Source: Myxococcota bacterium (lineage in GTDB: Bacteria; Myxococcota; B64-G9). Taken from it: 64,000 bases of DNA. The notes beneath the pieces were generated by a model. That model saw only the letters and a program-made list of their open reading frames with translations, was not told where the DNA came from and made no database searches. Positions 4,810 to 57,493 of this stretch are shown here, piece after piece. Numbering within the stretch: position 1 is the first letter of the stretch; each line of letters starts with the position of its first letter. A program made the position numbers and the translations under genes. The DNA is taken from assembly GCA_022710975.1 (NCBI GenBank), contig JAKLGA010000010.1, positions 1 through 64,000 of the forward strand. Direction: 5' to 3'.

Positions 4810-5037
4810 CGCACCTCGGGGACGAACGAGTACCAGCGGACCTGACGCCTCGTGATTCGAAATAGACGAAAGTCTAGCAGAATAGAAATAGGTCTACTCC
4901 GGCTGCCGTGATCGCATTCCTCGTTCGGCGAGATTCGATAGTGTTCACGGTTCGTTCTGCGGCGCGGCGAGGGTTGGCTCGACGCCTGCTCAGTGTGGGC
5001 CCGACACGCGCAATCAAGCGCGTGCAAGGAGGCTCCG
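4810..5037. promoter_or_regulatory. AT-richer divergent promoter region with TAGAC/GTCTA inverted repeat
   Basis: The 228-bp gap between genes at 4809 (minus) and 5038 (plus) contains the most AT-rich stretch of this part of the window (4855-4900). TAGAC-GAAA-GTCTA forms an inverted repeat at 4863-4876, and a related GGTCTA lies at 4891-4896. This is a plausible operator or promoter for the sigma-like gene cluster downstream. Binding of any particular regulator is not shown by the sequence. Confidence 0.4.
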
Positions 5038-5673
5038 ATGAAGCAGGCGAACGAGACGATCCGGGGCGAGGTGGTGGCGCGGTTCTTCTCCCAGGCGCAG
5101 CCGGACTGGGCGAGCGCGGATGGCCGCGAGGTGCAGGAGGCCCTGTTCGCCTTCCTGTGGAGCCTCGAGCTGGTGCGGCTCCCGGGTTGCGGCCAGGCGG
5201 ACCGCGAGAATCTGGCCATGGAGGCCTGGCACAAGCTCTTCGACCACGTCCGCGCCGGGAAGCCGGTTCGCGCCCGGAGCGCGGGCGAGCTCCGCGCCCT
5301 GTGCCGCATCACCCTGAAGAACCTCTGGCGGGACGGGCTGCGGGATGAGAAGCGCTTCCACCACAAGCCCGTGGAGGGTCTCGGCCAGCCCGTGGACGAC
5401 GACGAGGGCGAGGGCGGCCTGGCCAGGACCCCGGCGGCGCTCAGGGTGGAGCCCGAGGCCGAGGAGGCGGTCGACCGGCGGCGGGACGTCGAGCGGGTGC
5501 GCGCGGGCGTCGAGGCGGTGGGGGAGAAGAACCCGCGCCTCCGCCGGGTCCTGGAGCTCGAGCTCGCGGAGGCCAGCACTGAGGAGCTGATGGCGGCGCT
5601 CGGGGTGTCCTCGGCCAACGCCCACCAGCTCCGCACCCGCGCCCGCAAGGCGCTCCGGGAGGCGTTCGCGTGA
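5038..5673 (+). CDS. ECF-like RNA polymerase sigma factor, 211 residues
   Basis: The product has the layout of a small sigma-70 family factor. A region 2-like helical segment (about 35-105) includes ALCRITLKNLWRDGLRDEKR, which resembles the DNA-melting helix. A glycine/acid-rich linker of about 35 residues follows. A C-terminal helix-turn-helix (STEELMAALGVSSANAHQLR, 182-201) and basic tail (ARKALREAFA) resemble region 4. ATG 5038 follows AAGGAGGC. It heads the cluster 5744-8605 and may direct its transcription. A second protein of similar design is encoded at 41030. Confidence 0.8.
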   Translation: MKQANETIRGEVVARFFSQAQPDWASADGREVQEALFAFLWSLELVRLPGCGQADRENLAMEAWHKLFDHVRAGKPVRARSAGELRALCRITLKNLWRDGLRDEKRFHHKPVEGLGQPVDDDEGEGGLARTPAALRVEPEAEEAVDRRRDVERVRAGVEAVGEKNPRLRRVLELELAEASTEELMAALGVSSANAHQLRTRARKALREAFA

Positions 5674-5743
5674 TGGCTCGCTGTCAGAACCCGGTTCTGG
5701 AGCCCGTCTGGAGCGCATGACGGCCCACGAAGGAGGTCGAAAC

Positions 5744-6256
5744 ATGGCGCCGAGCGAAGCCTACCTCAAGGATCTCTGGTCGCGGACGCGGGTCGCGCTG
5801 GGCGAGCTGCCCGGCTGGATGGTCGCGCTCCTCGAGCGGGTGCCCGCGCTCATCGCCGAGAGCGAGCGGGACGCGGACCGGCGCCAGCGCCGGGAGGTGT
5901 ACCTGGGCCTGGCCACCCTCGTGGCCCGGCACACGGGCGGGAGCCTGCCGCTGTGCCTGGACGCCGTGCACCAGGTGCTTGGCGAGCGCGAGCCGGAGTT
6001 GCTCGAGGCCGGCGCGCCCTGCTCGCCCGCGCTGGTGGAGGAGGCCCGCGGCCACCTCGTCCGGGTGCGGGTGCGCTACTCGAAGGCTCGCGCCGGCCGC
6101 AGCCAGCGCACCATCGAGGCCTACATCGTCGCGGGAGGAAACGTCCGCGTGGTGCACCTGGAGCGCATGGTGGACTGGGACTGGCTCCCGGCCGAGGTGC
6201 GCGAGGGCTTGCTCGGGGAGCCGGGCAGGCAGGCCATGGAGTTCGAGCTGCTCTGA
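5744..6256 (+). CDS. Soluble protein of 170 residues with shared LPxxVRxxL C-terminal module
   Basis: ATG 5744 is chosen for its AAGGAGGTCG ribosome binding site, over the ATG 27 bp upstream. The N-terminal 110 residues are helical (YLKDLWSRTRVALGELPGWM...), and a beta-hairpin region (VRVRYSKAR, then TIEAYIVAGGNVRVVHLERM) follows. The last 30 residues contain DWDWLPAEVREGLL, the module that recurs in the next four genes. It has no membrane segment, unlike the next three products. No known family is recognised. It is the first member of the five-gene set after the sigma-like gene and probably acts with the AAA+ ATPase at 7598. Confidence 0.78.
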   Translation: MAPSEAYLKDLWSRTRVALGELPGWMVALLERVPALIAESERDADRRQRREVYLGLATLVARHTGGSLPLCLDAVHQVLGEREPELLEAGAPCSPALVEEARGHLVRVRVRYSKARAGRSQRTIEAYIVAGGNVRVVHLERMVDWDWLPAEVREGLLGEPGRQAMEFELL

Positions 6257-6272
6257 ACACAGGAGGACGAAC

Positions 6273-6749
6273 ATGGAACCCATCACCCTCATCGTCACCA
6301 TCCTGGCCGTCGGCTTGGGCGTCGCCAGCCTGTTCTGGGGGCAGATCCTCGCCTGGTGCGAGGAGCACCTGCTGCCCTTCCTCGACCGCCGGATGCCCTT
6401 CCTGTCGGGGATCGCGCGCAGCGCGCTGGTGCTGCTCGACAGGGCGGTGACCACGGTGCGGCGCGCGGCCCGGGCAGCCTGGCAGCACCTGCGGGCCGCG
6501 CTGCTCAAGACCGTGATGATCATCCGCCGCACCTCGGACGCGCGCTGGGTCCAGCGGTTCACCAGCTGGGCCATCACGCAGCTGGAGGACGGGCGAGAGC
6601 AGCCTCTCGAGGTGGTGACCGAGCGGGAGGTGGCCTGGGAGGATCTGCCAAACGACCTGCGCGAGGCCCTGGTCCGGCGGTGCCAGACGGTCGAGGTGGA
6701 CGTGACCGCGGCCCGGGACGCAGAGCTGGAGCTCGAGGTCGGCCACTAG
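6273..6749 (+). CDS. Membrane protein of 158 residues with shared C-terminal module
   Basis: Residues 4-28 (ITLIVTILAVGLGVASLFWGQILAW) form an N-terminal membrane segment. A basic helical region follows (TTVRRAARAAWQHLRAALLK), with a second amphipathic stretch near 105. The C-terminus has the beta-strand plus AWEDLPNDLREALV module shared with neighbours. ATG 6273 has CAGGAGGA upstream and lies 16 bp after the previous stop codon. No known family is recognised. The anchor suggests that the module faces the cytoplasm near the membrane. Confidence 0.78.
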   Translation: MEPITLIVTILAVGLGVASLFWGQILAWCEEHLLPFLDRRMPFLSGIARSALVLLDRAVTTVRRAARAAWQHLRAALLKTVMIIRRTSDARWVQRFTSWAITQLEDGREQPLEVVTEREVAWEDLPNDLREALVRRCQTVEVDVTAARDAELELEVGH

Positions 6750-6770
6750 CGGCCGGAGAGGAGGACGGAC

Positions 6771-7253
6771 ATGGAGACGAACCAGGTCATGGAGGCGGGC
6801 TTCGGCGGCTCCTGGCTGCTGGGGCTTGGGCTGCTGGCGGCGCTCGTGGCGCTGTGGGCCCTGTGGGCGCGCCGCCGGCCGGGCGGCGTCTCGGGGGCGG
6901 CCCTCAAGGCCTGGGTGGAGGACAAGGTGGCCGAGGCGCTCTCGCCGCTCCTCGGCGCGAGCCATGGGGCGGTGCTGGCAGAGCTCCGCTCGCACGAGGA
7001 TCGCGGACTCCGCGATCGGGTGGCCGGAGCGCTCGCAGGTGTCGAGCTCGCCTTCCACCGCCAAGGGGCCGGGGGACTGGTGGAGCTCACGCTCGCGGTC
7101 GCACCGCGGGAAGGGTCGCTGCGGGCCTGGCGGCGGATGCTCCGCTGGGAGGACACGCCGGACGAGGTGCGCGGACGCATGCTGCGTGAGCGCGCAAGGA
7201 GCTTCGTTCTGCCCTGGCACCCGGACTGGGCGGGCGCGCAGGGCGGGAGGTGA
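6771..7253 (+). CDS. Membrane protein of 160 residues with shared C-terminal module
   Basis: One membrane segment at about 14-34 (WLLGLGLLAALVALWALWARR) is followed by a cytoplasmic-type domain with alternating helices and strands (VELAFHRQGAGGLVELTLAVAP). The C-terminus contains LRWEDTPDEVRGRML, matching the recurring module with T in place of L. AGAGGAGG lies upstream of ATG 6771. The gene sits 21 bp after its predecessor and 3 bp before its successor, so the cluster is probably one transcript. Function unknown. Confidence 0.78.
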   Translation: METNQVMEAGFGGSWLLGLGLLAALVALWALWARRRPGGVSGAALKAWVEDKVAEALSPLLGASHGAVLAELRSHEDRGLRDRVAGALAGVELAFHRQGAGGLVELTLAVAPREGSLRAWRRMLRWEDTPDEVRGRMLRERARSFVLPWHPDWAGAQGGR

Positions 7254-7256
7254 GCC

Positions 7257-7580
7257 ATGTTCTTCCTGCCGTTCCTCCTCGGTCTCGCTGCCGGCGTTGG
7301 CTTCGGGGCCCTGGTCTCGGGCTGGGACGAGATCGTGGACCTCATTTCGGACTTCCTGCACAGCCACGGATGGCAGCGCTCGTGGCTCATGCGCGCCCTG
7401 GTGGTCTTCGACCAGCTGGTGTGCGGGTTGCGCCGGCTGATCGTGGTCCAGCGGGCGGGCGAGGAGCCGGTCCTGGTCGAGGAACGCGAGCTCGAGGAGG
7501 ACGAGCTCCCGGACGATGTCCGGGCGGCGCTCGGGGAGCGGGAGCGGGTGGTGGTCGACGTCCTGGAGCAGCTCGGTTGA
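7257..7580 (+). CDS. Small membrane-associated protein of 107 residues with shared C-terminal module
   Basis: The N-terminus (FFLPFLLGLAAGVGFGALVSG, 2-22) is a membrane or amphipathic anchor. The middle is helical (WMRALVV-like, WLMRALVVFDQLVCGLRRL), and the C-terminal 40 residues consist of a strand and the module EEDELPDDVRAALG. The ATG lies 3 bp after the upstream stop, which argues for translational coupling. It is the smallest member of the set, essentially anchor plus module. Function unknown. Confidence 0.75.
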   Translation: MFFLPFLLGLAAGVGFGALVSGWDEIVDLISDFLHSHGWQRSWLMRALVVFDQLVCGLRRLIVVQRAGEEPVLVEERELEEDELPDDVRAALGERERVVVDVLEQLG

Positions 7581-7597
7581 ACGCGAAGAGGAGTCCA

Positions 7598-8605
7598 ATG
7601 GCCATCGGCTGGGATAAGGCGGAGAGCATCCGGGCGGGCGGGGCGAGCGTCAGGGCCCGGGCGAGCGAGCCGCGTCTCGCCGGCCTGGAGCCCGAGGAGC
7701 CCCGGGCCGGGCTCGACGAGCTGGTGCTCGCCGAGGCCACCCGCGAGCAGGTGGAGCGGGCCATCGCGGTCGTGCGTCATCGCGACCTGCTCATGGACGG
7801 CTGGGGGCTCGGCGAGATGCTGCCCTGGGGCCGCGGCCTGGCGCTGAACCTGTACGGCCCGCCGGGCACGGGCAAGACCCACTGCGCCCACGCCATCGCC
7901 CGAGCGCTCGGCCGGAAGATCCTCGAGGTGGACTATGCCGAGCTCGAGTCGAAGTACGTGGGTGACACCCCCAAGAACATCAAGGCGGCCTTCGACCGGG
8001 CCCAGGAGACCGGCGCGATCCTGTTCTTCGACGAGGCAGACAGCCTGCTCGGGCAGCGGCTGACCGCGGTCACCCAGTCGGCCGACCACGCGGTGAACGT
8101 GAGCCGCTCGGAGCTGCTGAAGGCGCTCGAGCGCTTCGAGGGGGTGGTCGTCTTCGCCACGAATCTGGCGCGGAACTACGACCGGGCCTTCGTGCGCCGC
8201 ATCCACTTCCACGTGGAGCTCCCGCTGCCTGACCGGGCCGGCCTCGAGCGGCTCTGGGCGGCGAAGCTGCCCGCGAGGCTCCCCCGCGAGCCGGGCGTGA
8301 CCCCGGCCGCGCTGGCGGGGCTCTCGGAGGGCCTCTCGGGCGGTGAGCTGGTGTCGGCCCTGCGAGGCGCCGCCTCCCGCGCGGTGCTGCGCACCCAGGG
8401 GCTGGGCCCGGTGCTGGTCGAGGACTTCGCCACCGCCCTGGCCGAGGTGCGGAAGGCGAAGGACGAGGTGGGCAGGGAGCCCGGCGCGCCGGCGCCCGCG
8501 CCCGCCCGGACACGGGTCCGCGCCTTGCCTTTCGTTGAGCTGCCCGAGGACGTGAGGGAAGAGCTCTTGGATCCGGATCGATGCCTCGATCCGGAGGAAC
8601 ACTGA
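7598..8605 (+). CDS. Classical AAA+ ATPase with C-terminal LPxxVRxxL module, 335 residues
   Basis: Walker A is GPPGTGKT (87-94) and Walker B FFDEAD (143-148). KYVGDTPKN (119-127) corresponds to the pore-loop/ESxYVG region of FtsH/spastin-like AAA proteins. An arginine-finger region (RAFVRRIHFHVELPLP) and a C-terminal lid domain follow. The final 30 residues (PFVELPEDVREELLDPDR) repeat the module found at the ends of the four upstream products. The start at ATG 7598 follows AAGAGGAG. Such ATPases remodel or extract protein substrates; the shared tail suggests that the small membrane proteins are partners, assembly factors or substrates. The gene ends 4 bp before the convergent CARF-sigma54 gene. 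Confidence 0.93.
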   Translation: MAIGWDKAESIRAGGASVRARASEPRLAGLEPEEPRAGLDELVLAEATREQVERAIAVVRHRDLLMDGWGLGEMLPWGRGLALNLYGPPGTGKTHCAHAIARALGRKILEVDYAELESKYVGDTPKNIKAAFDRAQETGAILFFDEADSLLGQRLTAVTQSADHAVNVSRSELLKALERFEGVVVFATNLARNYDRAFVRRIHFHVELPLPDRAGLERLWAAKLPARLPREPGVTPAALAGLSEGLSGGELVSALRGAASRAVLRTQGLGPVLVEDFATALAEVRKAKDEVGREPGAPAPAPARTRVRALPFVELPEDVREELLDPDRCLDPEEH

Positions 8606-8609
8606 GGAT

Positions 8610-10238
8610 CTACCGGCGCTTCGCTGCTTCCTGGATGGCCTTGACGGTCAGGCCGTAGCGGCGGAGGAATTTGCTGATGCTATCGGAGGGGTTCTTGCAC
8701 TCGGCCAGGACTTCCTTGGCAGCATCAGAACCGTACTTGGAGGAAGCACACGATTCGACGACGGCTTCGAGCTCCCGGCGTTTCGCAAGCGGGATTCGAT
8801 CCAGCTCGGCTCTCGGGAGGAGCTCGTCGAGCAGTCGGGCACCGATCTCACGGCGAGGAGCCTGCTTTCGTCGCCAGGCTTCCCTGCGCTTCTCGATCTC
8901 TGCTTCTGCAACGGCTTCGGTGATGATGCCGTCGACGGACAGGTCCACCATCCTGCCCACGGAGGCGAGGAGCTCCCTGATGTTGCCTGGCCACGGTGCC
9001 TTCTTCGCCCAGCGAAGGAATCTGTCCAGGGGTTTCCCAGCGAATCGAATAGGCCTCTTCTTCCCGCGCCTCTCGATCTCGGCGAGCACCAGCCCTTCGA
9101 TTTCCTCGGGGTGCATCCGGAGCGGATGGAGCTCGAAGACGTGGACGTCGAGGCGTTCCCATAGGTCGCGCCTGAATTCGCCCTCGACGACGAGGGAGGC
9201 GATGTCCTTGTTCGTGGCGCAGATCAGGAAGAAGTCCACCGGCTTCTCGACGTCCGCGCCGAGCGGCCTGCACCTCTTGTCCTCGAGGACCTTGAGCAGC
9301 ATCCCCTGGGCCTCCGGATCCAGGTCCGCGACCTCGTCGAGAAAGAGGGTTCCGCCGTCCGCGGACAAGATGGCGCCCGTCCGCCTCGCCAGCGCACCGC
9401 TGAATGCGCCTTTCTCGTGGCCGAAGATCTCGGAGCGCACCAGCTCGCCGCGGAGCGCTGCGCAGTTGACCTCGAAGAGCCGGCCCTTGCGAGGATGCAC
9501 CGCGCGTTGCTCGAGTTGTTCGTGGATCGCCCGGGCGATGAACGTCTTCCCGGTCCCGGGCGCACCCAGCAGGACGATGGTGTCGTCGGTTCGCTCCGCC
9601 ACCTCGAGGATCTGCGCGAGCAGCGCCTTCTGCTTCTCGCTCCGGACAGGGGCGCCGCCGGCCAGCTCGTCGAGCCGCCGCACGCGATCGTTCTCGATGC
9701 GCTTCCGAATGGGATCGTAGGCGGACACGTCGAGGTCGATGGGCTTGACTCCTGCGGGCTCGGCCTCTGCCTGGAGTTGGCCCGCTTTCTCGGGGATGGT
9801 CTGGACGAGGTTCACCGGCAGCACCCGGGAGACCGCGAGTAGGAACAGGCAGGCTTTGAACACCTCTGTCCCCGTGCTCAGATGGAACCAGTAGTCCTCG
9901 TGGGCGAGATCGAATGGGTATTCCCGCGCGAGCTTCGAGAGCGCCTCGTGGACGCTCGGTAGATCCCAGGGCTTGCTGCCCAGATCGATCGTGCGACGTT
10001 CGACGGTCAGACCAGGCAGCGCCGCGAGGATGGTCTGCTCGAGCTCGAGCGCTCTCCCGGCGTGGCGCTCCTGGTGGAGCAACACGAGCTTGTGAAGCGC
10101 GGGCTTGTCACGCGGCCAGCCCTTACAGAGCTCGAGGGTGTATCGGAAGATCCTGCCGGCATCATGATCCTTGTGGTGTCTCCCGTCCTTTTGGTCGCCG
10201 AACAGGCTGAACACGACCTGCGGTCTCCCCTTCGTCAT
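8610..10238 (-). CDS. RtcR-family CARF-sigma54 transcription activator, 542 residues
   Basis: Residues 1-150 form a Rossmann-like CARF domain with HLSTGTEVFKACLFLL (119-134) followed by VNLVQTIP, the signature seen in RtcR. Residues 190-430 are an AAA+ sigma-54 interaction domain: Walker A GAPGTGKT (225-232), GAFSGA loop (277-282, the GAFTGA motif) and Walker B FLDEVA (299-304). The C-terminus (about 480-542) is basic and probably DNA binding. In RtcR the CARF domain senses an RNA-derived ligand and controls RNA repair genes; no rtcA or rtcB is present here. Its ATG overlaps the cas6 stop by 4 bp, so it is co-translated with cas6. It probably controls cas6 itself or the adaptation operon; no sigma-54 promoter was identified by eye. 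Confidence 0.92.
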   Translation of the reverse strand: MTKGRPQVVFSLFGDQKDGRHHKDHDAGRIFRYTLELCKGWPRDKPALHKLVLLHQERHAGRALELEQTILAALPGLTVERRTIDLGSKPWDLPSVHEALSKLAREYPFDLAHEDYWFHLSTGTEVFKACLFLLAVSRVLPVNLVQTIPEKAGQLQAEAEPAGVKPIDLDVSAYDPIRKRIENDRVRRLDELAGGAPVRSEKQKALLAQILEVAERTDDTIVLLGAPGTGKTFIARAIHEQLEQRAVHPRKGRLFEVNCAALRGELVRSEIFGHEKGAFSGALARRTGAILSADGGTLFLDEVADLDPEAQGMLLKVLEDKRCRPLGADVEKPVDFFLICATNKDIASLVVEGEFRRDLWERLDVHVFELHPLRMHPEEIEGLVLAEIERRGKKRPIRFAGKPLDRFLRWAKKAPWPGNIRELLASVGRMVDLSVDGIITEAVAEAEIEKRREAWRRKQAPRREIGARLLDELLPRAELDRIPLAKRRELEAVVESCASSKYGSDAAKEVLAECKNPSDSISKFLRRYGLTVKAIQEAAKRR

Positions 10239-11245
10239 GCGTCCTCCTGATCTACCTCGATCCGCCCCAGGCCGAGCGCGGTGCCGCGGCCGAGGTGCAG
10301 GAGCGCGCCGAGCTCGAGCCAGTCGCGCGCCGCGGGCGGGCAGGACCCGTACACGAGCTCGCCCACCAGCCCCTCGTGCGGCACGGCCTGGCCCTGGCGA
10401 CGGGAGTCGCGGAGCCAGCACACCTTCCGCACCAGGGCCTCGAGGAGCTCGGCCTCGTCCGCGAGATCGACCGCGGCCACCCGGGCGGGCAGGGCCGGCA
10501 GGTCCGTGTGCGCGGTCAGGAGCTGGCCGACCCGCCGCACCGCAGCCAGCACGAGCTGGTACAGACTGGGCGCCTTCTCGACGAGCTTTCCGCGCTCGCG
10601 GAGGGCGAGCGGGGTGACGAGCCGGACCCGGAGCGTGGCGGATTTCCGCCTGCCTCCGGTCCCAGGCGTGTAGGGTGCGGGCGGGGCGAGCTCGATGGGA
10701 GCCTCCCGGTCGCGGTCCAGGACCCGCCGCTCTGCGCCGTCCGGGAGGAGCTGCCAGGCCGCGTCGAGCCGGAGCGGCCAGTACTGGGGGCCGTCGCTGC
10801 CTTGCGCCGCGTCGTCCATGCGGCGGATGGCGAGGAGCGCCATGGGCAGGTGCAGGGCCGGCTGCCCCACGCAAGTGAACGGCACATCCACTTCCTCGCC
10901 CCGGCCGAGCTCGAGCGCCGCGGGCGGCAACCCGGCCACGAACGGGTGGGGTGCGTGGTCCCCGTGGGCGCCGACCGCGCCTACCGGGCCGGGAGTCTGG
11001 AACAGGCTCCCGAAGGCGCAGGCGTGGAGCGCGAGACAGCGGCCGCAGTCCTGCTCGGGCAGGCCGCACACCAGCCGTCGAAGGTGGGCGCCCAGCCGGC
11101 TGTGGAAGCGATCGCCCGGGTTGACCTGGATACGGGTGTCCGCGGTCGCGGCGAAGCGCAGCACCAGCCGGGTGAGCGGCAGCGGCGGGATCTCTGTGGC
11201 CCGGCCCCGCGCGCGCTTCGTCCCTGTCGCCCTGGTCGCCAACAT
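10235..11245 (-). CDS. cas6: Cas6 pre-crRNA endoribonuclease, 336 residues
   Basis: The C-terminal segment (HLGRGTALGLGRIEV, 317-331) is the glycine-rich loop diagnostic of Cas6 RAMP proteins, and GLVGELVYGS just before it fits the ferredoxin-like fold. The N-terminal half has a Cys cluster (C60, C67, C70, C76), typical of the longer Cas6 subfamily (DUF2276-like). Cas6 binds the repeat hairpin and cleaves 3' of it, leaving an 8-nt 5' handle, here ATTGAAAC. ATG 11245 follows AGAGGAGA. A catalytic His cannot be assigned safely by eye; H48 in DRFHSRLGAH is one candidate. The 3' end overlaps the CARF-sigma54 gene by ATGA, and the 5' end is divergent from the primase operon. Confidence 0.88.
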   Translation of the reverse strand: MLATRATGTKRARGRATEIPPLPLTRLVLRFAATADTRIQVNPGDRFHSRLGAHLRRLVCGLPEQDCGRCLALHACAFGSLFQTPGPVGAVGAHGDHAPHPFVAGLPPAALELGRGEEVDVPFTCVGQPALHLPMALLAIRRMDDAAQGSDGPQYWPLRLDAAWQLLPDGAERRVLDRDREAPIELAPPAPYTPGTGGRRKSATLRVRLVTPLALRERGKLVEKAPSLYQLVLAAVRRVGQLLTAHTDLPALPARVAAVDLADEAELLEALVRKVCWLRDSRRQGQAVPHEGLVGELVYGSCPPAARDWLELGALLHLGRGTALGLGRIEVDQEDA

Positions 11246-11382
11246 GCCGCGTCTCCTCTGATCGGAGGCATTGTCGCGGATGCGCCCGGCGTCCGCAAGC
11301 GCAGCGGCCGTCAGACCGGTCCCGCGCGCGGCGTCTGGATCCTCGAGGGCAGAAAGGCCCACGCCCTCGCGGGAGGTGCCCG
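11246..11382. promoter_or_regulatory. Divergent control region between cas6 and the primase-cas2-cas1 operon
   Basis: The 137-bp gap must hold promoters for both directions. It is very GC-rich, with GGGAGGTG (11372-11379) as the plus-strand ribosome binding site and AGAGGAGA for cas6. A weak GG-N10-GC arrangement can be found on the minus strand, but its other bases do not match the sigma-54 consensus, so no promoter is assigned. Confidence 0.35.
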
Positions 11383-13281
11383 ATGGAGTCGCGAACCCTG
11401 GCCGAGCTCGTCACCCTGGCCGATACCGATCCCGACGCTTGCCGCGCCGCCCTGGACGCGCTCGTGCCCGATGGGCTGACACCCGCGGAGCTCGTGGGGC
11501 TGGCCGAGCTGGCCGTGCGGCTCGGCCGGGCCGAGGCGGCCATTCGGTTCCTGGACGCGGCCCTGGCCCAGGACTCTGGCCACGCACCCGCGCTCCGCCG
11601 GCTGTGCGATCTCCGTCGCGACCAGGGCGACACCGAGCGCGCTGCGGCGCTCCTCGCCAGGCTCGCGGACCTCGGCGATCACCAGGCCGGGCTCGAGGAG
11701 ATCGCGCTCCTCCTGGAGGCGGGCCGCCTGCCCCAGTCCGAGCAGGCCCTGGCCAGGCTCGCCCCGCGCTGCCCGCCTGAGCTCCAGTCCCGGCTCCTCA
11801 GCCTCACCGTGCGTTTCGAGGCGGCCATCGAGGGCCGGACCACGGACGAGGCGCCGGACGAGCCGGACGCCAACGGGGATGCCGCCGGCCCACCCGTGCG
11901 TTTGGCTTCCGACGCCGAGCTGGTGGCGCTCGCCGACTTGTTCGCCGGCCGCGAGGGGGTGCACGCCCGCCAGTGGAAGGGGCCGGACGGACGCGCGGGC
12001 TACAGCCCGGTGCACACGCCGCTCACCCCGGCGCTGGTCCGCGAGCACCTGCTGGGCGCCATCACCCTTGGCACCTACGTGGTCCGCCGGGACGGGGGCG
12101 CCAACTTCCTGGCGCTCGATGTGGATCTCACCCGGCCCGCCCTGGAAGCGCTGGGCCGCGGCCCGCGGCGGGCCTTCGAGGACGTGTTGGCCAAGGCCCT
12201 GGCCTTCGCCCGAAGGCTCGCGTCCGCGCTCCGGGGCTTCGGGCTCTCGCCCGTGCTCGAGGACAGCGGCCACAAGGGCTACCACGCCTGGGTGTTCTTC
12301 GCCGAGCCCTGGTCCGCGGCCCTGGCCCGCAGGCTCGCACGCGCTGCCCTGGGACTGGCCGGGCCGCCGCCCGAGGGGGTGGCGGTGGACGTGTTCCCGG
12401 CCCAAGGCCGGGTGCCGGCCGACGGGCTCGGGAACCTGATCAAGCTGCCGCTCGGCGTTCACCGGAAGACCGGCCGCAAGAGTCTGCTCCTCGGTGAGGA
12501 CGGGAAGCCGCTCCGCGATCCCATCCGAGCGCTCGTGGCTACGCCTCGGGCCTCCGCCGAGGCGCTCGAGGCCGCGCTCGCGCGGGCCGAGGCGGAGCTG
12601 GCGGGACGCCTGGCGAGCGGCGCACCCGACGCCGGGCGCGGCGACGAGGACGGCACCGGCGGCGACGACCCGCAGGGTGACCCGTCCCGGGCGCGTCACT
12701 GCCGGCCGCAGGCCGCGCCCGTGCGGCCGGACTACGCCCTGGACTCCGATCCGGAGGTGAAGGCGCTGCTCGACCGCTGCGCCCCGCTCCTCGGCATCGT
12801 GCGCGTGGCGCGTGCGGGCCGTCCGCTCACGCACGACGAGCGGGCGGTGCTCACCTTCACCCTGGGCCACCTGACCCACGGCCCGGACGCGGTGAACACC
12901 CTGCTGCCCGCGGCCGAGCTCGGCACGGACGGCCCGGTCCTCAAGTCGCGGCTCCGCGGCCAGCCCATGGGCTGCCGGAAGATCCGCGCCCGGCTGGGGC
13001 TCCAGCCCGACGAGGAGCGCTGCGACTGCCGCTTCGATCCCACGCTCGGCGCCTACCCGCACCCGCTCCTGCACCTCGCCGCCCTGTGGGCCGAGGAGGC
13101 CGAGGAGCGCCGGGCGGCCCTGGCCGCGGTCGGGGCGCAGTCCGCGCTGGCCGCCGAGGCGTCCGTCGCGGTCGCTTCGCGCGCCGCCCCGGCGCAGGCC
13201 CAGGACACCCCTGCCGCGCTCGCTTCGTCCGGGGGCAAGCTGATCCCCTTCCCGGGCCGCGGCCGTCCGGGCCGGGACTGA
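11383..13281 (+). CDS. CRISPR-associated primase-polymerase (AEP family) with helical N-terminal region, 632 residues
   Basis: Residues 1-150 are TPR-like helices. The primase core follows: D246 and D248 in LALDVDL (motif I), SGHKGYHAW (295-303, the S-x-H-type motif II) and D336 in VDVFP with IKLPLGVHRKTG (353-364, motif III). These are the hallmarks of archaeo-eukaryotic primase-polymerases. The C-terminus contains a Cys/His-containing segment (CRKIRARLG ... CDCRF) like that of related PrimPols. CRISPR-associated primase-polymerases are known next to cas1/cas2 in type III loci and are thought to help make or process spacer DNA. ATG 11383 has GGGAGGTG upstream, and cas2 starts 8 bp after the stop. 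The product could supply DNA synthesis during spacer acquisition. Confidence 0.9.
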   Translation: MESRTLAELVTLADTDPDACRAALDALVPDGLTPAELVGLAELAVRLGRAEAAIRFLDAALAQDSGHAPALRRLCDLRRDQGDTERAAALLARLADLGDHQAGLEEIALLLEAGRLPQSEQALARLAPRCPPELQSRLLSLTVRFEAAIEGRTTDEAPDEPDANGDAAGPPVRLASDAELVALADLFAGREGVHARQWKGPDGRAGYSPVHTPLTPALVREHLLGAITLGTYVVRRDGGANFLALDVDLTRPALEALGRGPRRAFEDVLAKALAFARRLASALRGFGLSPVLEDSGHKGYHAWVFFAEPWSAALARRLARAALGLAGPPPEGVAVDVFPAQGRVPADGLGNLIKLPLGVHRKTGRKSLLLGEDGKPLRDPIRALVATPRASAEALEAALARAEAELAGRLASGAPDAGRGDEDGTGGDDPQGDPSRARHCRPQAAPVRPDYALDSDPEVKALLDRCAPLLGIVRVARAGRPLTHDERAVLTFTLGHLTHGPDAVNTLLPAAELGTDGPVLKSRLRGQPMGCRKIRARLGLQPDEERCDCRFDPTLGAYPHPLLHLAALWAEEAEERRAALAAVGAQSALAAEASVAVASRAAPAQAQDTPAALASSGGKLIPFPGRGRPGRD

Positions 13282-13289
13282 GGCGCGCC

Positions 13290-13568
13290 ATGCTGTACGT
13301 GGTCTGCTACGACATCGCCGACGAACGCCGGCGGCGGCGGGTGGAGAGGACGCTCAAGGGCTACGGCCACCGGGTCCAGGAGAGCGTGTTCGAGGCTGAG
13401 CTGGACGACAAGAAGCGGCTCGAGCTGGAGCTCAAGCTCGCCAAGGTGATCGACCAGGCCGAGGACAACCTGCGCTTCTACCGCCAGTGCGGCGGCTGCC
13501 GCCTGGTGGTCGAGGTGCTGGGGGTGGGCGGCCTGCCTGAGGGCCAGCCCAGGCTGATGGTGGTGTAG
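13290..13568 (+). CDS. cas2: Cas2, 92 residues
   Basis: The N-terminal strand MLYVVCYDIAD with the conserved Asp (D8) is typical of Cas2, as are the ferredoxin-like layout (RRRRVERTLKGYGHRVQESVFEAEL) and the ARG/TYR-rich segment NLRFYRQCGGC. Cas2 dimers bridge Cas1 dimers in the integrase complex. The gene lies between the primase and cas1 in one operon (8-bp and 20-bp gaps). The length is normal for the family. Confidence 0.95.
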   Translation: MLYVVCYDIADERRRRRVERTLKGYGHRVQESVFEAELDDKKRLELELKLAKVIDQAEDNLRFYRQCGGCRLVVEVLGVGGLPEGQPRLMVV

Positions 13569-13588: not shown

Positions 13589-14716
13589 GTGCGCCGGCTG
13601 TACGTGGTGGAGCCGGGCGCCCGGGTGACCCGCGAGGGCGAGCGCATCCGGGTGCTGGTCGGCGAGCAGGAGGTGGAGAGCGTGCGCGCGGACGAGCTTG
13701 CTCAGGTGGTGGTGGTGGGCTCGGCGGGGCTGAGCACGCCTGCCATGCAGGCGCTGCTCAAGGCCGGAGCCGAGGTGGTGCTCTTGACCCGCAACGGCCG
13801 CTTCCTCGGGAGGCTGTGCTCGGGCCTGAGCCCCAGCGCCCGAGCCCGCCACTGCCAGTACGCCCGGCTTCAGGACCCGACCGCCCGTCTGGGCTTCGCC
13901 AGGCGGGTGGTGGCGGGCAAGATCGCCAACCAGGTGCGGCTCCTCCGTCGTCACCAGAGCAGGCTCAAGGACCCCTCGGTGGCGAGCGCGCTGCCGCGCA
14001 TGCGCCAGGCCGGCGCGGACGCGCTCACCGCGGCCGACGTGGACATCCTGCGTGGGCTCGAGGGCGCGGCCGCCGCGGCCTACTTCGGGGTATTCGGCCG
14101 GCTGCTCAAGGCCGAGGGGGTGGCCTTCGAGCGCCGGGTGCGCCGCCCGCCGCCCGATCCGGTCAACATCCTGCTCTCCTTCGGCTACACGCTGCTCGGC
14201 AACCTGGTGCACGCGGCCGTGGAGACGGCCGGGCTCGATCCCTACCTGGGCGCGCTGCACGAGCTCCGCGCGGGTCGGCCGAGCTTGGTGCTCGACCTCC
14301 TCGAGGAGCTCCGCCCGGTGGTGGTGGACACGGCCGTGCTGCGGGCGTTCAACACCCGCGCCATGCTGCCCGGGGACTTCGTCTCCATCACCGACGATGC
14401 CCCGGGGGTGGAGGACGCCTGGGAGCGGGAGGCCTGGGAGGCGCGCGAGGCCGCTGACGGTGCCGGAGATGCCAGCGCCGGAGAGGCCGGGCAAGACGGC
14501 GCGGAGCCGGCCGGCCCGCGGCGCTCGATGGTGCTCACCCGGGTCGGGGTGAAGAAGTGGATCGCCTGCTACGAGCGGCGGCTCGAGGAGCAGGCCTGGT
14601 ACGAGCCGCGTGGCCAGCGGCTATCCCTGCGCGAGGTGGCCCAGGCGCAGGCGTATCGCCTGGCCCGGCACTTCGAGGGGCAGGAGGAGTACACGGCCTT
14701 CGAGTCGCCGGAGTGA
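13589..14716 (+). CDS. cas1: Cas1 integrase, 375 residues
   Basis: The catalytic triad is intact: E158 in GLEGAAAAAYF, H224 in ALHELRAGRPSL and E239 in DLLEELRP (with D236). The N-terminal beta domain (RRLYVVEPGARV...) and the C-terminal helical domain have normal order. A Gly/Ala/Glu-rich insert of about 45 residues (270-312) separates the catalytic part from the final helices. The start is GTG 13589 after GAGAGGAGG; no ATG fits. Cas1 with Cas2 integrates new spacers at the leader end, which lies directly downstream. No cas4 gene is present in the locus. Confidence 0.97.
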   Translation: MRRLYVVEPGARVTREGERIRVLVGEQEVESVRADELAQVVVVGSAGLSTPAMQALLKAGAEVVLLTRNGRFLGRLCSGLSPSARARHCQYARLQDPTARLGFARRVVAGKIANQVRLLRRHQSRLKDPSVASALPRMRQAGADALTAADVDILRGLEGAAAAAYFGVFGRLLKAEGVAFERRVRRPPPDPVNILLSFGYTLLGNLVHAAVETAGLDPYLGALHELRAGRPSLVLDLLEELRPVVVDTAVLRAFNTRAMLPGDFVSITDDAPGVEDAWEREAWEAREAADGAGDASAGEAGQDGAEPAGPRRSMVLTRVGVKKWIACYERRLEEQAWYEPRGQRLSLREVAQAQAYRLARHFEGQEEYTAFESPE

Positions 14717-15090: not shown

Positions 15091-15097
15091 GTGGTGC

Positions 15098-18000
15098 GTC
15101 GCAGGACCTTCCCCGAGATGAAGGGGATTGAAACCATGTCGGGCCCGTACAGAGCGCACTCGAGCGCCCCGAGCTGTCGCAGGACCTTCCCCGAGATGAA
15201 GGGGATTGAAACGCCTTCTGCTTGGCCGTCTTGCCGACCACGGTCGTGCCGCGTCGCAGGACCTTCCCCGAGATGAAGGGGATTGAAACTCGATGAGCTG
15301 CGCGCACGAACCCAAGGTCCAGTAGTGTCGCAGGACCTTCCCCGAGATGAAGGGGATTGAAACCAGGTGGCGCTGAACTGGAGGTTGCTGTGCTCGGCTC
15401 TCGTCGCAGGACCTTCCCCGAGATGAAGGGGATTGAAACAATTCATCGCCGGCCAGAATCCGGTGGATAGCGATGACGCTAGTCGCAGGACCTTCCCCGA
15501 GATGAAGGGGATTGAAACGCGGATCGTGTCTGCCATGCGGTCCCTGGAACGCAGCTCGGTCGCAGGACCTTCCCCGAGATGAAGGGGATTGAAACTTGCC
15601 ATGACGCTCATATCGCACCTCCTGCGATTGGTCGCAGGACCTTCCCCGAGATGAAGGGGATTGAAACACAGCTTTCCGCCGCCTGCGCAAGATTGCCATG
15701 ACACTCGTCGCAGGACCTTCCCCGAGATGAAGGGGATTGAAACGCTTCCTTTCTGCAATAGATACCGTTCGGTGTGTCCTTGTCGCAGGACCTTCCCCGA
15801 GATGAAGGGGATTGAAACGGGCCGCACACGTCAGCCGCGAGTTTGTCGAGGTCGCTGTCGCAGGACCTTCCCCGAGATGAAGGGGATTGAAACTCCATTC
15901 CCGCGGCATGTCCTGGGCCTCGCCCAGGTCCACGAGTCGCAGGACCTTCCCCGAGATGAAGGGGATTGAAACGGCTGGTACGGCGGCTGCTGAGGCTGCC
16001 CCGGCGCCGTGTCGCAGGACCTTCCCCGAGATGAAGGGGATTGAAACGTCCCTGGCCTGGATCGCGTCGTACTCAGCCCGGTCGCAGGACCTTCCCCGAG
16101 ATGAAGGGGATTGAAACTCTGCAGCCGCCGCCTTTGCCTTGAGGATCAGCCACATCGTCGCAGGACCTTCCCCGAGATGAAGGGGATTGAAACCGCTGTG
16201 GCTGGCGTATCGGTCGCTCTGGATCTTGTCGCAGGACCTTCCCCGAGATGAAGGGGATTGAAACGCAGCACGGCCCCGAACACGATCACGCGCCGCGTCC
16301 CGTCGCAGGACCTTCCCCGAGATGAAGGGGATTGAAACTCATCCCTTCCTTGTTCGAACGTTCAGATCGTGGTCTCCAGGTCGCAGGACCTTCCCCGAGA
16401 TGAAGGGGATTGAAACTGAGCACACGCAGGGACATCAGGTGCCGGATAGCAGCCGCGTCGCAGGACCTTCCCCGAGATGAAGGGGATTGAAACTTCGCCC
16501 CGCTCAGCTTCGGCGGCCTCGTGCCGCACGGGAGTCGCAGGACCTTCCCCGAGATGAAGGGGATTGAAACCAGGCTTGCCCGGGCACTCTCGTTTCCAAG
16601 CCTACCCGTCGCAGGACCTTCCCCGAGATGAAGGGGATTGAAACGGGCGAGCCTCGTCCTGCCGGAGCGACGCCATCAGCGTCGCAGGACCTTCCCCGAG
16701 ATGAAGGGGATTGAAACGGGATCACGATCTGCACGGCCTCCGTGCGGTCCGGGCGGTCGCAGGACCTTCCCCGAGATGAAGGGGATTGAAACTCCTCGAC
16801 CAGCTCATGGAAGCGGCCCAGGTCCAGGCGCGTCGCAGGACCTTCCCCGAGATGAAGGGGATTGAAACAACTTGCGCTCGCTGATGCGCTGGTCCGCGGT
16901 CGGCCGGCGCGTCGCAGGACCTTCCCCGAGATGAAGGGGATTGAAACTTCAATCCAACATTCAAGGCACGGGCTTTATGAAGTCGCAGGACCTTCCCCGA
17001 GATGAAGGGGATTGAAACAACACGTCCTTGTGGAACAGGTCGCCCATCGAGCAGACGAGTCGCAGGACCTTCCCCGAGATGAAGGGGATTGAAACCGCAG
17101 CGGCTGGTCGAGCACCTCCTCGCGGAAGGTGACGTCGCAGGACCTTCCCCGAGATGAAGGGGATTGAAACTTCACCTTGTTGGCGAGCAGAGCGAACAAG
17201 GGCTCCCGTCGCAGGACCTTCCCCGAGATGAAGGGGATTGAAACGTCGAGAAGTTGCGGACGTGGAGGCTGCAGGTCGCAGGACCTTCCCCGAGATGAAG
17301 GGGATTGAAACCTCGAGATCGTCCAGCCGCGCCTCGTCCAGGTGCGGGTCGTCGCAGGACCTTCCCCGAGATGAAGGGGATTGAAACAACACGTCCTTGT
17401 GGAACAGGTCGCCCATCGAGCAGACGAGTCGCAGGACCTTCCCCGAGATGAAGGGGATTGAAACGTTGCCCTTGTGGTAGGCCAGATCGCAGTTGTCCAG
17501 GGGTCGCAGGACCTTCCCCGAGATGAAGGGGATTGAAACTATTCCTTTCTTCGAGCGTTGGGATCAGATCGTGGTCGCAGGACCTTCCCCGAGATGAAGG
17601 GGATTGAAACTCAGTCCCGAGGGTCCGAGCCCGTCACGGGCTCATCGCACGTCGCAGGACCTTCCCCGAGATGAAGGGGATTGAAACTCATCAACATCGT
17701 TTCGCCGCCTGCGAAGGATTGCCATGGTCGCAGGACCTTCCCCGAGATGAAGGGGATTGAAACTGAGACACCGTTTGGTGTGTCTTTGCCCCAGAAGGCC
17801 GCGTCGCAGGACCTTCCCCGAGATGAAGGGGATTGAAACCACGGGCACCCACGTGGCGAACAGTCGTTTGCACGCCGTCGCAGGACCTTCCCCGAGATGA
17901 AGGGGATTGAAACCTGAACCCGAACTCCGTCGTCTTGGCGTAGGCCCGGATCACAGTCGCAGGACCTTCCCCGAGATGAAGGGGATTGAAACATTGGCTG

Positions 18001-21000
18001 AGTGGTCCCCGCCTCCACGAAGACCTCCCAACCGTCGCAGGACCTTCCCCGAGATGAAGGGGATTGAAACTCTTTGCTTTTGATTTCCATGGTTCAACCC
18101 CTGTTTTCGTCGCAGGACCTTCCCCGAGATGAAGGGGATTGAAACAACTCGGCGCACAACTTGCCGTCAAAACAGCGTTCCAGAGTCGCAGGACCTTCCC
18201 CGAGATGAAGGGGATTGAAACGCCGTTTCCGTTCTCGCTCATGACTTGATCTCCGTCGCAGGACCTTCCCCGAGATGAAGGGGATTGAAACGACGCAGTT
18301 CCTTGCGGGCATCTTCGGCCGCTATGTCGCAGGACCTTCCCCGAGATGAAGGGGATTGAAACCACGAAGTTCACGTGGAACTTGCGAACCTCTGCGACCA
18401 GAGTCGCAGGACCTTCCCCGAGATGAAGGGGATTGAAACCCCGAGAGCCCTACGACGTCGACCTACTTACGTGTCGCAGGACCTTCCCCGAGATGAAGGG
18501 GATTGAAACTTGTGCCAGTAGTTCTGCCGGGCGAAGAACCCCTCGGTCGCAGGACCTTCCCCGAGATGAAGGGGATTGAAACATCTTCTTTGCAGTTGGC
18601 GAGCCGACACTCGAGAGGCTTTGTCGCAGGACCTTCCCCGAGATGAAGGGGATTGAAACTTTTTAGGCCGCGTCCCTGGCATCGCGGTGGTGCTGTCGCA
18701 GGACCTTCCCCGAGATGAAGGGGATTGAAACGTCTTGGGCGGCGCGGAGAGGACCGCGAGCTCGGTCGCAGGACCTTCCCCGAGATGAAGGGGATTGAAA
18801 CCAGGATCTTCGCCCTCGTGGGAAGGGCAAACTCCGTCGCAGGACCTTCCCCGAGATGAAGGGGATTGAAACTCTTACACTATGGTCGCCCTACCGGCCT
18901 GCTATTGTCGCAGGACCTTCCCCGAGATGAAAGGGATTGAAACGTCATGGCTTTGCCCCTATGTGGAATTACTTCCACCGTCGCAGGACCTTCCCCGAGA
19001 TGAAGGGGATTGAAACTAGAAAACTAGCTTCGATGGTTCGAAACGTTGGGAAAGTCGCAGGACCTTCCCCGAGATGAAGGGGATTGAAACCCAATGGCTT
19101 GCTGTAGTCCTGATGGTGCGCCTGAATCGGTCGCAGGACCTTCCCCGAGATGAAGGGGATTGAAACGCATCAGCCTCCGCCTTGAGCGCCGCGAGTCTCG
19201 CCCGTCGCAGGACCTTCCCCGAGATGAAGGGGATTGAAACTTCGCTGCACAGCCTCGCCTCTTCTTCCTCGCCATCGTCGCAGGACCTTCCCCGAGATGA
19301 AGGGGATTGAAACATGTAGTCGTGCAGGGCCAGGGCCCGCTGGATCTTCGCCGCGTCGCAGGACCTTCCCCGAGATGAAGGGGATTGAAACCTTGTCTCC
19401 CATGATGGGACGATCGGCTGCGCACGGCGAGGTCGCAGGACCTTCCCCGAGATGAAGGGGATTGAAACTCCGCTGGAGCCGCGCCACCTCGGCCACCGTC
19501 TCCCGGGCCGGTCGCAGGACCTTCCCCGAGATGAAGGGGATTGAAACAGCTGATCTGCATCAGCTCCTCGGGATCCACGCCGTCGGTCGCAGGACCTTCC
19601 CCGAGATGAAGGGGATTGAAACTTCTTGCCCTGCCTCAGGTAGGTGGGCGTGTCGAGTCGCAGGACCTTCCCCGAGATGAAGGGGATTGAAACGATGACC
19701 TCTCCGGTGTTGATCAGCTGGCCATCCTTGTCGCAGGACCTTCCCCGAGATGAAGGGGATTGAAACGGGTCGGTGGCTTCACAGTTTGCCCACAAACCGC
19801 CGTGGTCGCAGGACCTTCCCCGAGATGAAGGGGATTGAAACAACGAAGTCGGGGTCGATGCGCATGTTCATGGCGTGTTGTCGCAGGACCTTCCCCGAGA
19901 TGAAGGGGATTGAAACACCGTGGTTCGGACGTTTCGTATTGGGCCTTCACGTCCCTGTCGCAGGACCTTCCCCGAGATGAAGGGGATTGAAACGCGGGAG
20001 CGCGTCCGGGTCCGGACGATTCATGCCGGGACCGGTCGCAGGACCTTCCCCGAGATGAAGGGGATTGAAACACCTGGATGTCCACGCCAGGATCTGGCAT
20101 GTCCTTGATCGTCGCAGGACCTTCCCCGAGATGAAGGGGATTGAAACTATCCTCGTCCACCCGCTCTAACCAAGCGGGCCGGAGTCGCAGGACCTTCCCC
20201 GAGATGAAGGGGATTGAAACCACGAGCCCCATCTTACCGGCCATGGCGAAGGGCGGTCGCAGGACCTTCCCCGAGATGAAGGGGATTGAAACGGGGCGAG
20301 ATCGCCCGCGAGCGCGTCGATATCCTCGGTCGCAGGACCTTCCCCGAGATGAAGGGGATTGAAACGAACGCCGCCGGCCGGAAGAAGGTCTCCACACCGG
20401 CCTGTCGCAGGACCTTCCCCGAGATGAAGGGGATTGAAACGGGGACATCGATGGGATCGGGGCCACCGGCACCACCGTCTGTCGCAGGACCTTCCCCGAG
20501 ATGAAGGGGATTGAAACGCATGTGCCGTTGATGACACGGGTGTCAACACGATGGTCGCAGGACCTTCCCCGAGATGAAGGGGATTGAAACCTCGGCGGCT
20601 CGCTCCCGCACGCCAGCCACAGCAGCGTCGCAGGACCTTCCCCGAGATGAAGGGGATTGAAACTCGATGTTCTTCATGGCATCAGCGATAGCAGGATGTC
20701 GCAGGACCTTCCCCGAGATGAAGGGGATTGAAACTGTTCGCTGGCATCGGAGCACCTCCTACCGGAACCACCGGGTCGCAGGACCTTCCCCGAGATGAAG
20801 GGGATTGAAACAGCCAGCGGGCTCGGTCTTGAGGACCTTGAGGACGTGGTCGCAGGACCTTCCCCGAGATGAAGGGGATTGAAACTCTTGTTCTTCTTCT
20901 GGAGCTTCTTGAGGTCTTCCTGTCGCAGGACCTTCCCCGAGATGAAGGGGATTGAAACACCTCCTCTACACGGTCACGCCGTCCGGGTATCGCGTGGCGG

Positions 21001-21780
21001 TCGCAGGACCTTCCCCGAGATGAAGGGGATTGAAACGATGTTCTCCCTGGCATTGGCCACCAGGCGCTGGCGTCGCAGGACCTTCCCCGAGATGAAGGGG
21101 ATTGAAACGCCGTGCGGCCTCGGGCCTCCGGGTGCTGCTCGAGCGTCGCAGGACCTTCCCCGAGATGAAGGGGATTGAAACGCCGTGCGGCCTCGGGCCT
21201 CCGGGTGCTGCTCGAGCGTCGCAGGACCTTCCCCGAGATGAAGGGGATTGAAACTTCCATCCAACGTCCGTGCGGGGTCCATTCCCGCGGCGTCGCAGGA
21301 CCTTCCCCGAGATGAAGGGGATTGAAACGACCCGGACCCGGACCCGGACCCGGACCCGGACCCGTACCCGGACCCGTACCCGGGTCGCAGGACCTTCCCC
21401 GAGATGAAGGGGATTGAAACTTGGCGGCCCAGGCCGGGTCCTCGCGGTGCTTCTTGGCCGTCGCAGGACCTTCCCCGAGATGAAGGAGATTGAAACGCCT
21501 TGCGCAGGTCGTCCATCCACCTGTTCAGGGCGTCGCAGGACCTTCCCCGAGATGAAGGGGATTGAAACGCAGCGCGCAGCGGTAGGCGTGGCAGGCGGTG
21601 GCCGTCTCGTCGCAGGACCTTCCCCGAGATGAAGGGGATTGAAACCAGCCTGGGTCACAAGCCGTAGCATGCAGCGTTGAGTCGCAGGACCTTCCCCGAG
21701 ATGAAGGGGATTGAAACAGCGCGGCGCAGCTCGTCGGGTGCGAGAGCATCCAGCGGAGTCGCAGGACCTTCCCCGAGATG
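15098..21780 (+). CRISPR. Long CRISPR array, 37-bp repeat, 90 repeats by hand count
   Basis: The repeat is GTCGCAGGACCTTCCCCGA followed by GATGAAGGGGATTGAAAC. A TCCCC/GGGGA stem with loop GAGATGAA precedes the 3' tail ATTGAAAC, the usual crRNA 5' handle after Cas6 cleavage. Repeats begin at 15098, 15176, 15253 and so on to 21758; I count 90, the last broken after GATG at 21780. Spacers are mostly 34-42 nt (mean period about 75). Sequence variants occur at 18907 (AAAGGG) and 21460 (AAGGAG). Two spacers are exact duplicates of others (17019-17058 and 17388-17427; 21109-21144 and 21182-21217), and one of 55 nt is low-complexity (21329-21383). Transcription should run from the leader at the left. 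Apparent ORFs on both strands are repeat artefacts. Confidence 0.99.
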
Positions 21781-21896
21781 ACCCTTGGGCTGCAGCGGGT
21801 AGTTTGCGAGTGCGAGTCCGAGGTGCATGACCGTCCCGTGCTAGACGCACGCCCAAGGACGGCAGAGGCATTGGGTAAAGGCGAGGGTGTCTGCCG
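21781..21896. repeat. Element X, copy 1 (116 bp), inside the last repeat
   Basis: The final repeat is intact up to GATG (21780). It is then interrupted by 116 bp and resumes as AGGGGATT at 21897. The insert begins ACCCTTGGGCT and ends with a CGGCAGA ... TCTGCCG hairpin. ACCCTTGGGC can also pair with GCCCAAGG in the middle. A second copy of the same length lies at 22023-22138. The outer parts are nearly identical between copies, while about 50 bp in the middle differ. It could be a small palindrome-bearing mobile element or a structured RNA. Confidence 0.75.
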
Positions 21897-21924
21897 AGGG
21901 GATTTACCGCAGGACCTTCCCCGA

Positions 21925-22022
21925 CAGCGAAGCCGATGCGCAACTTGCATGGGCTGAGCAGTGGTCACGCCAGGTGGTTGGAGCGTGTCGTGGTAGCGCC
22001 TACCCCGTAGCGTGACCAGATG
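21925..22022. repeat. Element Y, copy 1, in a repeat loop
   Basis: The repeat 5' part GCAGGACCTTCCCCGA (21909-21924) is followed by about 98 bp beginning CAGCGAAGCCGATGCG and containing GAGCAGTGGTCACGC. The insert ends GCGTGACCAGATG, directly before element X copy 2. TGGTCACGC and GCGTGACCA form a perfect 9-bp stem. The same layout with different but complementary stem bases appears in copies 2 and 3. Confidence 0.78.
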
Positions 22023-25436: not shown

Positions 25437-25553
25437 ACTTCTCGTGCTGGATGCCGCATCCTGCTGCCAGCCACCATCGGCGGCGAGCTGGACGTGTGCC
25501 CGCCTGTCAGGCCGCCCGGTCCGCCCGCGTCCAGGCTCGTAGGAGGTGAGGCC

Positions 25554-28078: not shown

Positions 28079-28244
28079 GTTCCCCAGGCCCTGACACTTG
28101 GCCGAGTCAGATCCTGGTCGTTCTCGTCGTCTGCAGGTGGAGAATTCGGTTGCGTCTTGCCCTGGGCTCGATATCCTCCAGAAGCGAGCCGACAGCGATG
28201 AGGAGTGGGTCTTCGGGACGCGAGGTCCCATGGGAGGTGGTTCG

Positions 28245-30358: not shown

Positions 30359-30371
30359 GGAGCGCACCGCC

Positions 30372-33729: not shown

Positions 33730-33739
33730 GGTGGCGACA

Positions 33740-42411: not shown

Positions 42412-42414
42412 GGT

Positions 42415-55887: not shown

Positions 55888-57493
<1,606 letters not shown>

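Follow-up and report, generated by a model that had tools for sequence, protein, structure and literature searches.

An RtcR-family CARF–sigma-54 regulator overlapping cas6 in a type III-D CRISPR locus of a Myxococcota bacterium

Type III CRISPR systems are known mainly for the triggering of nucleases, and the links from their signals to transcription that we found in the literature are Csa3, of which Csa3a is reported to bind cyclic tetra-adenylate (cA4; PMC8699464), and the proteins CalpL, CalpT and CalpS, through which cA4 is described as producing a sigma-factor transcriptional response (PMC12751052). For another CARF protein, RtcR, the ligand of the CARF domain is itself disputed, the candidates being tRNA halves with a cyclic phosphate and an unidentified small molecule. 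In Salmonella, the RtcR CARF domain is reported to bind 5′ tRNA halves with a 2′,3′-cyclic phosphate at about 200 nM, with RtcR oligomerising and RtcA being required (PMC7790460). Here we analyse a stretch of 64,000 nucleotides from a Myxococcota bacterium (contig JAKLGA010000010.1, positions 1 to 64,000; hereafter the window) in which the gene of an RtcR-family enhancer-binding protein (the regulator; 8610–10238, minus strand) overlaps cas6 of a type III-D CRISPR locus. A CARF–sigma-54 activator in this position would add a further, bacterial route from a type III signal to transcription. We judge the chances evenly divided on whether the regulator is a dedicated CARF–sigma-54 transcription switch of the type III-D system, a reading in which the ligand class, the targets and the co-transcription with cas6 are all surmised.

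The cas6–regulator pair and its type III-D locus

The cas6 gene (10235–11245, minus strand, ATG at 11245) encodes 336 amino acids and matches PF10040 at 40.1 bits and the PADLOC Cas6 model at 171.5 bits. Its end is shared with the start of the regulator in the four bases ATGA (10235–10238, minus strand), composed of the final base of a cas6 GCA codon and the cas6 TGA stop (10238–10235), and the ribosome-binding site of the regulator, AGGAGG (10243–10248, minus strand), lies within the cas6 coding sequence. The regulator itself, 542 amino acids long, consists of a CARF domain (residues 1–195), an AAA+ sigma-54 interaction domain (200–366) and then a helix-turn-helix (HTH). It scores 116.6 bits against the RtcR family PF06956 and 163.6 bits against Sigma54_activat (PF00158), and its best PADLOC model is RtcR--CARF_AAA_HTH at 394.5 bits, with two RtcR_PspF models lower at 250.7 and 191.4. 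The motifs of the AAA+ domain are intact (Walker motifs GAPGTGKT and GTLFLDE), with the loop GAFSGA in place of GAFTGA (column T268, here S280). An earlier note on this DNA had described a CARF–sigma-54 protein of RtcR type overlapping cas6 by ATGA, and the coordinates, the domains and the AGGAGG inside cas6 all bear this out. The unit comprises these two genes, as an AAA gene on the opposite strand ends at 8605, 4 bases past the stop of the regulator. Overlaps of four bases in the form ATGA are common in compact operons, so this one argues for co-transcription of cas6 and the regulator and not for any special mechanism; judging from the overlap, the two probably share an mRNA.

The surrounding locus carries the parts of a signalling type III system. 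The cas10 gene (28098–29747, plus strand; identified by sequence and PADLOC) retains GGDD at 28992, as the earlier note had said, and the same locus holds csx1 (38629–39954, minus strand; PADLOC 436 bits, TIGR02221), a CARF2-HEPN effector of cyclic oligoadenylate (cOA) with the R-X4-H motif RNGFDH. By its parts, then, the locus should be able to make cOA and has a standard cOA effector. The type III-D assignment comes from cas5 (30321–31871, plus strand; PADLOC Cas5_IIId 191 bits), cas7 (31868–33292, plus strand; Cas7_IIId 292 bits) and a second cas7 (33731–36073, plus strand; Cas7_IIId 406 bits, TIGR03986). Divergent from cas6, across an intergenic region (11246–11382) in which two arms of 10 nt form an inverted repeat (11341–11372), lie the gene of a CRISPR-associated primase-polymerase (CAPP; 11383–13281, plus strand) with TPR and AEP domains (NF040561 245.7 bits, cut-off 200), then cas2 (13290–13568, plus strand; PF09827) and cas1 (13589–14716, plus strand; PF01867). 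These are followed by a CRISPR array (15096–22000, plus strand) in which GTCGCAGGACCTTCCCCGAGATGAAGGGGATTGAAAC recurs about 80 times; its outer end is approximate, and further copies lie beyond a transposase to about 24500. That transposase gene, of the DDE_Tnp_1 insertion-sequence type (22299–24113), interrupts the array, and repeats resume at about 24266 and about 24438. The protein encoded before cas10 at 25494–27125 has a C-terminal S1/CSD domain resembling those of TOTE conflict systems (PF22707 22.5 bits, below cut-off).

A divergent CARF domain and its candidate ligands

We searched for the CARF domain of the regulator (9654–10238, minus strand) in six phylum draws and fetched all 144 matches besides the regulator's own, with as much flanking sequence as the contigs allow. 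Genomes with a match numbered 76 of 193 in the regulator's own phylum (source genome included) and 9 of 347, 26 of 398, 1 of 297, 32 of 224 and 0 of 228 in the other draws. Of these 144 loci, 133 have rtcB nearby and 118 have rtcA. Identity to E. coli RtcR is at least 50% in 143 of the 144 (50–70%), and the regulator stands at 36–38% to E. coli RtcR and 28–41% to the other sampled RtcRs. A second, divergent RtcR, 50% identical to that of E. coli and not beside rtcB, was seen at locus L200 (genome G170, contig C367), where it lies near an opposite-strand gene for a protein of 1819 amino acids.

Our conservation alignment has 143 rows, made of E. coli RtcR and 142 loci (one locus without a usable frame was excluded and L236, a fusion protein described below, was held apart). 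Of the 45 CARF columns conserved at 95% or above the regulator retains 29, and in the AAA+ domain it retains 58 of 97 strongly conserved columns. The pocket motif RW..WRP in the loop after strand 1 has become AG..FRY, and past strand 4 the regulator has E125 and K128 where E. coli RtcR has H117 and Q120; in other words it carries A, G, F, Y, E and K at the positions of R23, W24, W27, P29, H117 and Q120 (E. coli numbering), each of which is kept in 97–99% of canonical RtcRs. RtcR proteins are described as mostly lacking the positive residue that other CARF domains have after strand 4 (Makarova et al. 2014, PMC4012209). At the last of these positions 99% of canonical RtcRs have Q120, and the lysine K128 of the regulator is suggestive, though not placed in a pocket. 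In a CARF tree of 53 rows (45 drawn at random among the long-enough sequences and the remainder named), the terminal branch of the regulator is 5.96 changes per column long, where the median is 0.21. The score against the RtcR equivalog of NCBIfam, NF038308, is 420 bits, below the cut-off of 650. The regulator is thus better described as an activator of the RtcR family in a new setting than as RtcR proper, since the equivalog score, the linkage to rtcB and rtcA and the conserved CARF residues all fail.

A sequence search of solved structures gave no real match to the CARF domain. A model of the domain supports a CARF fold. The model was built from a 4-row alignment (pLDDT 70.4, pTM 0.69); among solved structures it comes closest to Csm6′ with cyclic hexa-adenylate (cA6) at Z 13.1 (145 residues, 3.2 Å) and Csm6 with a cA6 analogue at Z 12.4, and the 50 listed entries of the structure search, with Z between 8.9 and 13.1, are all CARF proteins judging by their titles. 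A fold held in common with Csm6 and Csm6′ does not reveal the ligand of the regulator.

What might the ligand be? A type III locus offers more than one source. Besides cOA, it would offer RNA ends, as Cas6, type III Cas7 and HEPN RNases are reported to leave 2′,3′-cyclic phosphates (PMC11127173, PMC4748810) and ring nucleases to leave A2>p (PMC7192623); cyclic-phosphate RNA is also what the authors of the CoCoNuT work proposed as ligand of their RtcR homologues (PMC11090510). Because the canonical pocket is gone and the locus has a cyclase-type Cas10, we judge a cOA-derived ligand to be just short of evenly probable, cyclic-phosphate RNA to be less probable but a real contender, and some other ligand to be improbable. 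A pocket-divergent RtcR in a cOA-making locus would also provide a clean test of what the canonical pocket recognises.

Candidate targets, genomic setting and rival explanations

The mechanism that we propose runs as follows. The regulator would be made from the cas6 mRNA, and by homology its CARF domain would keep the AAA+ ring inactive in the absence of ligand; once ligand is bound, the ring would assemble and open sigma-54 promoters. The ligand would come from the type III response, most likely as cOA or a linear product of it and next most likely as RNA with a 2′,3′-cyclic phosphate left by Cas6, Cas7 or Csx1. Neither cas6 nor the adaptation genes are likely to be the output, and the only candidate promoters in the window precede two genes for sigma70-like factors, at 5038 and 41030.

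This view of the output comes from a scan in which GG-N10-GC sites were scored against a sigma-54 consensus (maximum 20.2) and compared with shuffles. As a control we used 93 divergent rtcR–rtcB regions (E. coli included; not mutually independent), in which 91 score at least 14 and 88 at least 17. Between cas6 and the primase, the best sites reach 13.5 (P 0.89 against shuffles) and 14.7 (P 0.41) of the possible 20.2. With no sigma-54 site above chance there, against 88 of 93 control regions at 17 or above, the feedback loop onto cas6 and the primase that the earlier note had suggested is not supported. The two candidate sites lie elsewhere: one at 4975–4990 (plus strand, 18.2 of 20.2), 47 nt before sigma70-like gene A (5038–5673, plus strand; PF08281 weak, E 0.006), and one at 40979–40994 (plus strand, 17.7 of 20.2), 35 nt before sigma70-like gene B (41030–41710, plus strand), which is related to gene A at 26% identity (E 5e-8). 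Of 40 upstream stretches chosen by hand, with two alternative starts included for csx1, 3 reach 17.5 against 0.6 expected (P 0.0175, with the threshold chosen afterwards); the third belongs to a gene at 24528. A relay from sigma-54 to sigma70 through the two sigma70-like genes is a weak but testable suggestion. The cassette headed by gene A (5038–8605) encodes several small proteins and closes at 8605 with the gene of an AAA ATPase; several of its proteins, the ATPase among them, share a C-terminal motif like LPxDVRExL, and the small proteins tested match no Pfam family at cut-off. Gene B heads a second cassette (41030–45226) whose proteins match no Pfam family.

How unusual is the setting of the regulator among its relatives? 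Around the 144 sampled loci, neighbouring cas genes were sought by tblastn with the Cas proteins of the window and CRISPR arrays by an exact-repeat finder, within about 9 kb and less on short contigs; divergent cas genes near the sampled RtcRs may escape tblastn. No RtcR proper lies beside cas genes in the 144 loci, and a cas gene is near one match only, that of L236 (genome G1401, contig C50, 9324–10856; from the draw around a Planctomycetota centre). The repeat finder flagged locus L198, with 4 repeats; this locus carries rtcB and rtcA. The L236 protein joins an RtcR-type CARF domain (PF06956 at 191.9 bits over the first 190 residues) to radical SAM (34.2 bits) and SPASM (32.5 bits) domains in the remainder. 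It starts, on the same strand, 103 bases after type III-B genes for Cas10 (GGDD), Cmr3, Cmr4, Cmr6, Csx1, Csx20 and Cas1; a terminator between cas1 and the fusion, suspected by eye, was dropped when folding gave no stable hairpin. Its CARF domain retains the canonical RtcR motif and did not group with that of the regulator in any of 200 bootstraps, both branches being very long and the program warning about their placement. We found no publication linking type III CRISPR, radical SAM and an effector, and if the link is real the protein would add a new kind of enzyme to those linked to CRISPR. One adjacency in 144 could be chance, so we treat L236 as a lead and not as proof of recurrence. Taken with the window, it raises the idea that RtcR-type CARFs are an unrecognised class of type III sensor, recruited repeatedly, with sigma-54 transcription through a sigma70-like relay as the output here and a radical SAM/SPASM reaction as the output in L236. 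We hold this broader idea to be rather unlikely; if true, the class would let type III immunity answer an RNA signal by reprogramming transcription or by an unknown radical enzyme reaction.

Beyond the sampled genomes, 74 plasmid records match the CARF domain, all below 60% identity, and 2 phage records do. IMG/VR gave no match with the CARF or the cas6 of the window, E. coli RtcR or the L236 protein as query, and with an alignment as query it gave three RtcRs, two adjoining rtcB and one a TROVE-like gene. That last neighbour, which we take by recognition and not by a family search to be a TROVE/Ro protein, makes the stretch (L267, 5799–9587) look like a fragment of an operon for RNA repair, carried by a putative virus. 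A contig profile search with an AAA+ pattern (80 loci) drew in ordinary NtrC-type activators, with one weak match to the CARF profile in the 80, and a CARF search in the genomes behind 12 of these loci found none.

Within its own genome the regulator is the sole RtcR. RtcA is absent from the genome by a search that recovers it from 5 of 14 control genomes (E. coli included), and there is one RtcB, unlinked to the regulator on another contig (C26:269058-270401) and about 32–34% identical to the RtcBs adjoining canonical RtcRs of its phylum. The absence of rtcAB claimed in the earlier note therefore holds within the window and, for RtcA, across the genome, but not for RtcB.

Several of our own results and two from the literature weigh against a dedicated switch. 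In the sample, the exact pair of cas6 and rtcR, for which the earlier note had proposed a genomic survey, is unique to this genome (cas6 beside an RtcR-type CARF in 0 of 144 other loci), an outcome that the note had named as refuting its reading and that is softened by L236 in its type III-B locus, and the RtcR-like family is listed among those not typically near cas genes (Makarova et al. 2014, PMC4012209). Sigma-54 sites above shuffles were found before none of cas6, CAPP, cas10, csx1 and the array leader, and the whole window has 32 sites at 17 or above against 31.8 expected, no excess. The candidate promoters depend on a post hoc threshold, and one of the three sites lies inside a spacer, that of the gene at 24528. 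Other sigma-54 activators are present, with at least 14 matches in the genome at E≤1e-30 (the regulator included), and a second sigma-54 activator in the window itself (55868–57493; no CARF match) could own the candidate sites. Finally, cOAs are reported to bind E. coli RtcR very weakly and not to relieve repression by its CARF domain (PMC9650030). Since the regulator lacks pocket residues that at least 97% of canonical RtcRs retain, neither this result nor the Salmonella one transfers to it directly.

These points leave room for three other explanations. The regulator may sense 2′,3′-cyclic-phosphate RNA as canonical RtcR does, taking it from Cas6 or Csx1 and not from tRNA breakage, so that co-expression with Cas6 would report crRNA production or Csx1 activity. 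The binding of tRNA halves by the Salmonella domain speaks for this, as do the ends that Cas6, Cas7, HEPN RNases and ring nucleases (A2>p) are reported to supply, and the absence here of RtcA, required for activation in Salmonella, means that such ends would have to come from elsewhere. We nevertheless consider it somewhat unlikely, because the canonical marker residues R23, W24, W27, P29, H117 and Q120 are all changed and because Cas6 products, being constitutive and usually protein-bound, would make a poor alarm. A quieter explanation is that of a chance neighbour, a divergent and perhaps horizontally acquired sigma-54 activator that came to lie after cas6 and regulates unrelated genes elsewhere. 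The one-off pairing, the extremely long branch and the lack of a local sigma-54 target above chance would all follow, yet the ATGA overlap in frame and the ribosome-binding site that lies within cas6, the intact AAA+ motifs, a CARF domain of the sensor type found throughout type III systems and the occurrence of another RtcR-type CARF among type III genes (L236) make mere accident quite unlikely. A single RtcR and a single RtcB in the genome would fit an ordinary RtcR acting in trans on the unlinked rtcB, but upstream of this gene the best sigma-54 score is 15.5 (P 0.94), no site above chance, RtcA is missing and the RtcB is distant from those beside canonical RtcRs of the phylum, so that we find this explanation very improbable.

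Comparison with known systems

A dedicated transcription switch beside cas6 would have a precedent close at hand. Within the same family, the nearest cas6 (38% identity) belongs to a III-D-like locus (Cas5_IIId, Csm3/Cas7) of genome G002, in which it is followed (L117, 8927–15376) first by a sigma-like gene, then by two unknown genes and a CARF-Lon gene (PADLOC CARF_m2--CARF_LON 197 bits), a transcriptional module resembling the Calp system. The sigma-like reading comes from inspection of the sequence and a weak match to gene A of the window (E 0.011). A transcription module adjoining cas6 thus appears to occur twice in the family, by different means.

Among described proteins the regulator most resembles RtcR, with which it shares the CARF-AAA+-HTH order and the length, and RtcR is its best family in both PADLOC and NCBIfam; it differs in overlapping cas6 in place of lying beside rtcB, in the lack of RtcA from its genome, in the loss of the pocket motif and in falling below the equivalog cut-off. 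Csx1 and Csm6 (CARF-HEPN) have the same CARF fold and provide the nearest solved structures to our model, but their output is an RNase and not transcription. The RtcR homologues of Type II and III-A CoCoNuT systems are likewise RtcR-like CARF activators attached to a defence locus, although their partner is a McrBC-type system and not CRISPR. Csa3, like the regulator, places a CARF sensor with a DNA-binding output in a CRISPR locus, but it has a winged HTH, with no AAA+ domain or sigma-54 dependence. CalpL, CalpT and CalpS also lead from a type III signal to transcription; they act through proteolysis of an anti-sigma factor, whereas the window proteins that were scanned include no Lon protease, and the regulator would reach transcription through its own AAA+ sigma-54 interaction domain.

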